DNA of 64,000 bases, taken from Nitrospirota bacterium (GTDB lineage: Bacteria; Nitrospirota; Thermodesulfovibrionia; Thermodesulfovibrionales; UBA1546). The stretch spans positions 23,268 to 87,267 of the forward strand of contig JACQXE010000052.1 in assembly GCA_016208915.1 (NCBI GenBank), given 5' to 3'. A program made the position numbers and the translations under genes. Positions 2,879 to 5,393 of this stretch are shown here, piece by piece (within the stretch, counting starts at the first letter, position 1; each line of letters opens with the position of its first letter). The notes beneath the pieces are model-generated. The model was given only the letters and a program-made list of their open reading frames with translations, was not told where the DNA came from and did not search any database.

Positions 2879-3032
2879 AGCTAAGCAGATATATCGAGAC
2901 AAACAGGCAGATACCATATCCTGCTTGTTTATAGTTTTAATTCGAGGCAGAAAGAATGAAAAAGGAAAGGGATGTGATATAATTTTTAAAAATGGGTTTA
3001 GTGTTATTTTGTACACAAAAGGAGGAATCACG

Positions 3033-3728
3033 ATGCAGAGAATTGCTTTATTTGTCTTTGTGCTGGCATTAATTCCTTTCACTATGAATCTATATGCGAA
3101 GGAGGTGAATGATATGGTAAAAGATATACACTGGCTTGGACATGACACATTCAAGATAGCAGGCGAAAAGGTTATCTATACAGATCCCTTCAAGATAAAG
3201 AAGAAAGATACAGCAGATATTATATTAATTACACATGAGCATCATGACCATTGCTCGCCTGAGGATGTTAAAAAAGTTCAGGGCGCTGATACAGTAATTG
3301 TTGCAACAGCAGACTGCGCAGGCAAATTATCAGGCAACATAAAGATTGTTAAGCCCGGAGATAAGATTAATGCCGGAGGCATAGAGTTTGAGGCAGTGCC
3401 TTCCTATAACACGAATAAGAAGTTTCATCCAAAGGCAAATGATTGGGTCGGCTATATCTTTACTGTTAAAGGGCAGAGGATTTATCTTGCCGGTGATACT
3501 GATTACATCCCTGAGATGAAAAACTTCAAGTGTGATATTGCGCTTCTGCCTGTCTCAGGTACCTATGTTATGACAGCAGATGAGGCTGTTAAAGCAGCGC
3601 TTGATATCAAGCCGAAGATTGCAATTCCCATGCATTATGGCTCTATTGTTGGCTCAAAGGATGATGCAAAGAAATTTGCAGAAGGGCTGAAGGGGAAGGT
3701 TGAGGTTGTGATTTTAGATGAGGAGTGA
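3033..3728 (+). CDS. Metallo-beta-lactamase-fold metal-dependent hydrolase (UlaG/UPF0173-like) with N-terminal signal
   Basis: ITHEHHDHCSPED, AGDTDYIPEM, PMHYGSIVG; ggagga RBS upstream of 3033 ATG. Confidence 0.85.
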   Translation: MQRIALFVFVLALIPFTMNLYAKEVNDMVKDIHWLGHDTFKIAGEKVIYTDPFKIKKKDTADIILITHEHHDHCSPEDVKKVQGADTVIVATADCAGKLSGNIKIVKPGDKINAGGIEFEAVPSYNTNKKFHPKANDWVGYIFTVKGQRIYLAGDTDYIPEMKNFKCDIALLPVSGTYVMTADEAVKAALDIKPKIAIPMHYGSIVGSKDDAKKFAEGLKGKVEVVILDEE

Positions 3729-3772: not shown

Positions 3773-3797
3773 ATGTAGCCACAGGCTTTAGCCTGCG
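3773..3797 (+). repeat. REP-like 25-nt repeat, left of RAYT
   Basis: ATGTAGCCACAGGCTTTAGCCTGCG. Confidence 0.85.
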
Positions 3798-3805
3798 AGG
3801 ATAAT

Positions 3806-4300
3806 GTGAGGATAAAAGAAAAAAGGCATAGATTATCCAAAGAATTTTATAAAGGAGAAGTATCTGTCGCTTTCACATTATGTGTGAAACGGGATGTAAT
3901 CGCAGGCTTTAGCCTGCGTGAACCTGAAATTGTAAGCACGTTCACTAATATTCTTTCGTCGGTTGTTGTTGAAGCAAAGTGTATTGTTCCAGTTTATTGT
4001 TTCATGTCTGATCATCAACATATAATAATCGCAGGAACATGTAGTGATTCTGACATATGGGAAGCAATAACAAAATACAAACAAAAGACTGGTTTCTGGT
4101 TGTCTTCAAATAAATCTGGTGGTAAGTGGCAGAAGGATTTTTATGATCATGTAATAAGAAAGCATGAAGATATGACAGCCCAGATAATGTACATACTTGA
4201 TAACCCGGTAAGAAAAGGATTGGTGTTATCATGGCAGGAATATCCATACAAAGGTGCTATCGGATGCAAAATAGAAGATGTTTTAAATGGGATCATCTGA
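3806..4300 (+). mobile_element. REP-associated tyrosine transposase (RAYT, Y1/IS200-like family)
   Basis: HxH motif in CFMSDHQHIII, catalytic-type Tyr in KDFYDHVIR, flanking inverted REPs. Confidence 0.85.
3894..3918 (+). repeat. REP-like 25-nt repeat inside the RAYT coding sequence
   Basis: ATGTAATCGCAGGCTTTAGCCTGCG, encodes DVIAGFSLR. Confidence 0.85.
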
Positions 4301-4305
4301 ACAAT

Positions 4306-4330
4306 CGCAGGCTAAAGCCTGCGGCTACAT
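4306..4330 (-). repeat. REP-like 25-nt repeat, right of RAYT, inverted
   Basis: reverse complement ATGTAGCCGCAGGCTTTAGCCTGCG. Confidence 0.85.
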
Positions 4331-4346
4331 CTATGGAGATATTGAA

Positions 4347-5393
4347 ATGCTCACAGAAATAATCAGAATGTTCAAAGAGGAAGATGGTTTTGTATCCGGT
4401 GAGGAGATGAGCAGGAGGCTCGGCATCACAAGGGCTGCGATATGGAAAAAGATAGAGGCATTGAGGAATAAAGGATTCAGGATCGAAGGCTCTCCTGCAA
4501 AGGGGTACAGGCTGGTGAGGTCTCCGGAATTTTCAGTTGATGAACTCAGGACATTAATCCCCCCTCGCCCCCCTTTGGGAAAGGGGGGATGGGGGGATTT
4601 CATAGGCAGGGAGATTATCTTTCATGAGAGGACTGATTCTACAAATGTAATGGCTATGAAGCTTGCGGAAAATGGCGCAGGTAACGGAACGGTTGTTATC
4701 GCTGACAGCCAGTCAAAAGGAAAAGGACGGCTCGGCAGAACATGGACCTCGCCTTCAGGCATGAATGTATATATGAGCATTATTCTTAGGCCTGAGATAG
4801 AACCTAAGGATGCAACCCTGCTTACTATCATGTCTGCCGTTGCCTGTGCGAGAGCCATCAGAAATATCTCAGGGCTCCATGTTGGAATAAAATGGCCTAA
4901 TGACCTGATGGCGTCTGACAAAAAGATCGGCGGGATACTGACAGAGATGAAATCAGACCCTGACAGAATAATCTTTGCTGTTATAGGCATAGGCATTAAT
5001 GTGAATATGAACCAGAAGGATTTTCCGTCTGAGATAAAGCCTATCGCTACATCAATCAGAGAAGAACTCAATAATCCCCCCTCACCCCCCTTTGGTAAAG
5101 GGGGGATGGGGGGATTTGGAAAAGGTGAAATCTCACGCACACATATAATTGCCGGGATATTGAATGAGATGGACAGATGGTACGGGATTCTGAGAAAAAA
5201 GGGAAAGACGCCTCTGCTTGATGAATGGAGAGAATTCTCGTCAACTCTCGGAAGGAAGGTAAGGGTTTCAGCAGGCAGCCAGACATTCACAGGCATTGCA
5301 GAGGACATAGATGATGAGGGTATGCTTTTAGTGAGGCTTTCTTCAGGAGGATTAAAAAAAATCAGTGCAGGAGATGTGATGTTATTAAGGTGA
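4347..5393 (+). CDS. birA: Biotin operon repressor / biotin-[acetyl-CoA-carboxylase] ligase
   Basis: N-terminal HTH (MSRRLGITRAAIWKKIEAL), DSTNVMAMKLAENGA, SKGKGRLGRTWTSPSGMNVYMSIILRP, KWPNDLM, GIGINVN; the longer ORF from 4287 reads through the REP so 4347 preferred. Confidence 0.92.
   Translation: MLTEIIRMFKEEDGFVSGEEMSRRLGITRAAIWKKIEALRNKGFRIEGSPAKGYRLVRSPEFSVDELRTLIPPRPPLGKGGWGDFIGREIIFHERTDSTNVMAMKLAENGAGNGTVVIADSQSKGKGRLGRTWTSPSGMNVYMSIILRPEIEPKDATLLTIMSAVACARAIRNISGLHVGIKWPNDLMASDKKIGGILTEMKSDPDRIIFAVIGIGINVNMNQKDFPSEIKPIATSIREELNNPPSPPFGKGGMGGFGKGEISRTHIIAGILNEMDRWYGILRKKGKTPLLDEWREFSSTLGRKVRVSAGSQTFTGIAEDIDDEGMLLVRLSSGGLKKISAGDVMLLR
4556..4600. repeat. C/G-run palindromic repeat inside birA (copy 1)
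   Basis: aatcccccctcgcccccctttgggaaaggggggatggggggattt, reads IPPRPPLGKGGWGDF. Confidence 0.9.
5073..5117. repeat. C/G-run palindromic repeat inside birA (copy 2)
   Basis: aatcccccctcacccccctttggtaaaggggggatggggggattt, reads NPPSPPFGKGGMGGF. Confidence 0.9.

Follow-up and report, generated by a model that had tools for sequence, protein, structure and literature searches.

A REP palindrome in frame within a RAYT transposase gene of Nitrospirota

The window (the whole 64,000-nucleotide stretch of DNA analysed here, whose genome is called G000 below) contains, between a metallo-beta-lactamase-superfamily gene (2925-3728, + strand) and birA (4347-5393, + strand), a short gene of the RAYT or TnpAREP family (3806-4300, + strand; GTG start, 164 amino acids) that is accompanied by three copies of one palindromic repeat, or REP. 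The first-pass annotation of this DNA described 25-nt copies to the left of the gene, inside it in frame and, in inverted orientation, to its right, and all three are present: with a shared outer AT included they read ATGTAGCCACAGGCTTTAGCCTGCG at 3773-3797, ATGTAATCGCAGGCTTTAGCCTGCG at 3894-3918 and, inverted, ATGTAGCCGCAGGCTTTAGCCTGCG at 4306-4330. The REP itself is made up of a GTAG foot, CC, and a hairpin whose arms GCAGGC and GCCTGC enclose a TTTA loop. The left REP (3775-3797, + strand) has the foot and the hairpin, its outer stem pair being broken by a G to A change; the co-oriented inner REP (3896-3918, + strand) occupies codons 31-38 of the RAYT and has a perfect hairpin and a foot mutated to GTAA; and the inverted right REP (4306-4328, − strand) is perfect in both foot and hairpin. 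Folded as DNA, the inner and right hairpins give −8.7 and −8.5 kcal/mol, and the left one, without its outer pairs, −4.4 kcal/mol. The RAYT start is as close to the left REP as had been annotated, although the gap measures 8 nt and not ~9. The right REP lies, as annotated, between the RAYT stop, 5 nt past which it begins, and birA, ending 18 nt before the start at 4347; homologues of birA start there, and a longer birA ORF from 4287 runs through the REP.

The 16-mer core of the REP has 6 matches in the window against a mean of 0.42 in dinucleotide shuffles, and none of 100 shuffles reached 6. Counted over the genome the REP is not abundant, however; G000 holds four copies in total, and a multi-copy family in this genome was rejected as their source. 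Other genomes hold 2 (G007), 96 (G107) and 46 (G305) REPs, the last two having close RAYTs.

The protein was assigned to its family as follows: its score with the NCBIfam model REP_Tyr_transpos (NF047646) is 69 bits, under the cut-off of 80, and that with Pfam Y1_Tnp is a weak 20.6 bits, under the cut-off of 23, but its closest solved relative by sequence is the E. coli TnpAREP (4er8), which is also the top match in the PDB (TM 0.72), ahead of IS200/IS605 transposases, for an AF2 model built from a 13-row alignment (pLDDT 88.4, confident; an earlier model from 8 rows was poor, pLDDT 53). It shares with the E. coli protein the Y1-transposase fold, a HuH motif (D69-H70-Q71-H72) and a predicted catalytic tyrosine (Y129, in YILDNP), and W108, Q109, D114, H115 and R118 align in sequence with E. 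coli W94, Q95, E100, H101 and R104, which have been discussed for GTAG recognition (PMC6006769, PMC8266576). The two proteins are, however, only ~19% identical in the fold alignment, the REP of the window lacks the stem bulge of the E. coli one, and the loop between strand 1 and helix A is longer. A Y1 fold with HuH and predicted tyrosine, encoded between two inverted GTAG-footed REPs (the left with an imperfect stem), bears out the annotation of the outer copies as a REPtron; the window genome thus has both the protein family and the REP-flanked unit, but not the abundant REP population. Six other Y1 genes of this genome match weakly (23–31% identity over part of the query), one of them, L005, being of a longer type with the motif NHVH/YVENNP, and a scan of viral contigs returned no relatives.

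The inner REP is read in the RAYT ORF as V-I-A-G-F-S-L-R, residues 31-38, which the AF2 model places in a surface loop of the TnpAREP fold between strand 1 (residues 20-27) and helix A (40-56). The annotation had offered two explanations for it, a REP insertion that kept the gene open and a REP co-opted as protein sequence, and had raised the possibility that the residues are private to this gene. They are not private, since five other Nitrospirota lineages have an inner REP at the identical codon and in the identical frame. Four of these have intact genes with 70–95% protein identity, namely G007 (L009; a Thermodesulfovibrionales MAG of the same family as the window genome), G107 (L010), G135 (L015) and G369 (L011), and in the fifth, G305 (L016), the gene is broken. 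Nor are the residues common to all related RAYTs: eight relatives in the 13-row alignment have a loop that is 3 residues shorter and no REP (L012 and L013 from Planctomycetota/Scalindua, L014 from Desulfobaccales, L017 from Chloroflexi, and L026, L027, L029 and L030), and the inner REP is likewise missing from G441, whose host family is that of G369. With the segment absent from the non-carriers and the ORF of the window intact, an insertion that left the gene open is supported. That the codons merely resemble a REP by chance or by homology can be regarded as refuted, since about 7e-8 exact matches of the 16-mer stem-loop are expected in a gene of such length and the non-carriers are without it.

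Two local variants were seen in these genes. In the G107 RAYT (L010:2600-2650) about three in-frame tandem repeats of a 12-nt stretch with the REP foot (GCAGTAGCCTCA) add 8 residues, and in the Scalindua RAYT (L013:2980-3010) the stem of the right REP differs (CGTCCGCCTAGGCGGACG) while its GTAGCC foot is unchanged.

Once its REP columns are masked, the short RAYT alignment does not settle if the carriers form a single clade, and their firm monophyly had to be given up. The identical position favours a single gain, but because of this unsettled grouping one gain followed by loss, or two gains, are also possible. Several independent insertions at one codon in different RAYT lineages would agree with a masked tree that does not firmly group the carriers; codon, orientation and frame are nonetheless the same in all of them, and they are ~70% or more identical to the window protein, so we regard repeated insertion as quite improbable. 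Since the insert is common to a Nitrospirota group, it must be old. The net gain is 9 nt (three codons), shorter than a REP, and part of the target was therefore replaced. L014 has at the insert site the sequence TTCAGC, the same as in the REP core, which would allow insertion at microhomology. Among the RAYTs compared, no pair with filled and empty loops is close enough to give exact boundaries or a target duplication.

We therefore favour, with a probability of roughly three in four, the explanation that a REP landed in an ancestral Nitrospirota RAYT gene where the loop tolerated it, and that the decorated RAYT was inherited and passed between lineages. A REP, probably spread by this kind of RAYT, would have entered the ancestral gene at the codons of the strand 1–helix A loop; both its insertion by TnpAREP and the activity of the RAYT protein are presumed here. 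The outcome would be a net gain of three codons in a gene that could stay open because the sense strand of the REP has a single stop-free frame, VAAGFSLR. As the loop tolerates the insert, the decorated gene could since have been inherited and passed between lineages.

Three of the six reading frames of the REP are open, VAAGFSLR on one strand and RRLKPAAT and QAKACGY on the other, and the RAYT is not the only gene that is decorated in this way. REP places were taken from G107, G305 and G135, and long ORFs running through them were sought. In G107, 31 of 96 places fall in frame within ORFs that Pfam or NCBIfam matches support; the decorated genes are proS, metG, carB, nrdJ (B12-dependent ribonucleotide reductase), recX, and those for a NuoG-like protein, two heptosyltransferase proteins, an MMPL transporter (three copies), radical-SAM, FG-GAP and TPR proteins and the RAYT itself, with TPR genes accounting for 15 of the 31. 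In G369 a REP is in frame in thyX. In CarB the REP fills a loop whose sequence differs in each relative. The habit differs among genomes, since none of the 19 REP places in G305 qualified as in frame in a supported ORF; in the window genome, with only four copies, this REP was not seen in frame in genes other than the RAYT. The same palindrome is thus found in frame in several unrelated genes, as is characteristic of Rickettsia palindromic elements, and the inner REP is an example of a wider in-frame decoration of proteins by palindromes and not special to the RAYT. Separately, a TPR-protein gene array in G107 (L103, on C102) carries numerous in-frame REPs, with both strands represented and more than one or two in a gene.

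These findings argue against the other explanation in the annotation, that the REP peptide was co-opted and now serves the protein, in DNA binding for example. The residues A-G-F-x-L are still present in G369 in spite of the loss of the hairpin there, as co-option would predict; but the surface loop is tolerant and varies, G107 having 8 residues more; the corresponding insertion of subclass 2.3 lies, by the published description, far from the DNA surface (PMC6006769); and the identical peptide occurs in the unrelated proteins ProS, MetG, CarB, ThyX and RecX. We consider co-option very improbable.

The inner hairpin is kept at the DNA level in most carriers, although the protein would need no more than an open loop; in one genome it has decayed. 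Over the eight REP codons the five carriers have a third-position identity of 0.833 (gene mean 0.582; rank 3 of 157 sliding windows), and without the decayed G369 it is 0.925 (gene mean 0.596; rank 1 of 157), ranks that are descriptive because the windows overlap and the sequences are few; one further stretch, codons ~105-114, is comparable. In the inner copy of G107 both sides of the outer pair have changed, from GCAGGC..GCCTGC to TCAGGC..GCCTGA, with two amino-acid changes and pairing kept. This stem variant is unique among the ~96 REPs of G107, and it was therefore not copied from another REP of that genome, a source that we had considered. The inner REP of G135 has a single difference, in the loop (TTTA to TTCA). 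In G369 the 3′ arm of the hairpin is gone and in the window the foot is lost, and both genes are still open.

Such excess conservation suggests that the inner REP may be more than a purely passive passenger. The inner REP could be a working cis-acting site, bound by TnpAREP in single-stranded DNA or in its own mRNA, that limits expression of the RAYT or serves as a third recombination end, selection keeping the hairpin. The first-ranked third-position conservation without G369, the pair-keeping change in G107 and the position of the sole loop change, one at which REPMb tolerates change (PMC8266576), would all agree with this. However, G369 has lost the hairpin and the window copy has a GTAA foot, both genes being open nonetheless; the same REP is present in many genes that are not linked to a RAYT, and one compensatory event can stem from templated correction of a quasi-palindrome without selection. 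Selection for the hairpin and templated correction are both possible explanations of the conservation, and we hold a cis-acting role, in either of its forms, to be unlikely.

As a side effect of the insertion, the left and inner REPs are direct repeats 121 bp apart, and the start of the gene would therefore be lost on recombination between them or on excision by TnpAREP. G305 has a broken copy that looks like such a loss: its RAYT starts at the inner REP, as would be expected after deletion between the left REP and the co-oriented inner one, and TnpAREP might use these two repeats as well. Upstream of the G305 gene the first 29 codons have left no trace, with no similarity above that of shuffles, and an N-terminal remnant there was rejected. 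Further on, the same RAYT (L016:2494-2689) is interrupted by a 184-bp MITE-like element with perfect inverted ends (GAGGCTCTTGCAAAAGTC). A more far-reaching picture, which we put forward as a speculation rather more likely wrong than right by a wide measure, would make the REP family, in a group of Nitrospirota, a protein-decorating mobile palindrome with a decorated transposase, in which selection maintains the inner hairpin as a control or recombination site, so that the unit has a built-in off-switch (loss of the gene start by recombination between two co-oriented REPs), and in which the unit spreads between genera from REP to REP.

Evidence on movement of the unit comes from G000 and G007, which belong to two genera and have the RAYT at the same place, flanked by the metallo-beta-lactamase-family gene and birA. 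The two flanking genes are adjacent, with no RAYT, in G004, G005 and G009. Between G000 and G007 dS is 0.07 for the RAYT, 2.07 for the upstream gene and 1.22 for birA (Fisher tests on synonymous changes, p about 1e-21 to 1e-25), and in 40-bp steps the RAYT is 93–100% identical and the flanking genes mostly 62–90%, with breaks at the REPs. The low dS and the position of the breaks show that the REP-to-REP unit (3775-4328) underwent a recent insertion or conversion; its presence at one position in both genomes speaks for conversion of a copy already resident there, or for insertion at a preferred site. L012 and L013 were rejected as a second case of unit mobility, their flanks being syntenic. 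RAYTs have been reported as vertically inherited (PMC8049555), and horizontal transfer has been allowed for (PMC3686654); the G000/G007 pair, in which RAYT-REP sequence bounded by the REPs moved or was converted between genera, is relevant to the question of whether RAYTs are domesticated genes with strictly vertical descent.

A 2018 study (PMC6006769) described in-frame REPs inside tnpAREP genes of subclass 2.4 (RAYT group 4), where they generally lie between HuH and Y, and inside some subclass 2.8 genes; a 2013 study (PMC3733652) listed many genes with in-frame GTAG/CGTC REPs and likened these to Rickettsia palindromic elements. In-frame REPs in RAYTs and other genes are thus already published, and what is new here is the site, the subgroup and the phylum. 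As in subclass 2.4, REPs flank the gene and sit inside it with the frame unbroken, and the REP is of the canonical GTAG-footed type with three G-C pairs at the base of its stem; in contrast, the insert of the window, at residues 31-38, precedes HuH (69-72), the motifs are DHQH/WQK/YILDNP and not NH[IFV]H/WQ/YIxNNP, and the HuH-Y spacing is 57 as against about 88. As in the 2013 cases and in Rickettsia, palindromes are in frame in housekeeping genes, including those of DNA metabolism and tRNA synthetases, but here the host is a Nitrospirota, the REP family is another one, and the decorated genes include the transposase of the REP itself. The Marinomonas REPtron Mb (PMC8266576) also has a perfect short hairpin with a TTTA loop, but its protein belongs to a different group. 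In the present locus a REP has long been retained by the gene of its own presumed mobiliser, and its site is unlike that of subclass 2.4 inserts; the case adds Nitrospirota to the lineages with palindrome-decorated essential proteins, and it offers carriers and non-carriers for testing the role of the hairpin.

Other palindromes were also found in frame in the window. In the downstream birA another palindrome has been inserted twice in frame, with cores at 4569-4587 and 5086-5104, and both insertions are absent from three relatives. This second palindrome, with the core CCCCTTTGNNAAAGGGGG, is read roughly as PPxPPLxKGGxGGF and is also present twice, in frame, in the gene at 1898-2878 (2133-2151 and 2681-2699); its core pattern has 42 strand-wise matches in the window genome. 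A third repeat type (1164-1253) is in frame in a minus-strand ORF at 579-1487, presumably an rRNA-methyltransferase gene, where it reads VIPAKAGIQ...LDSHLRGNDG.
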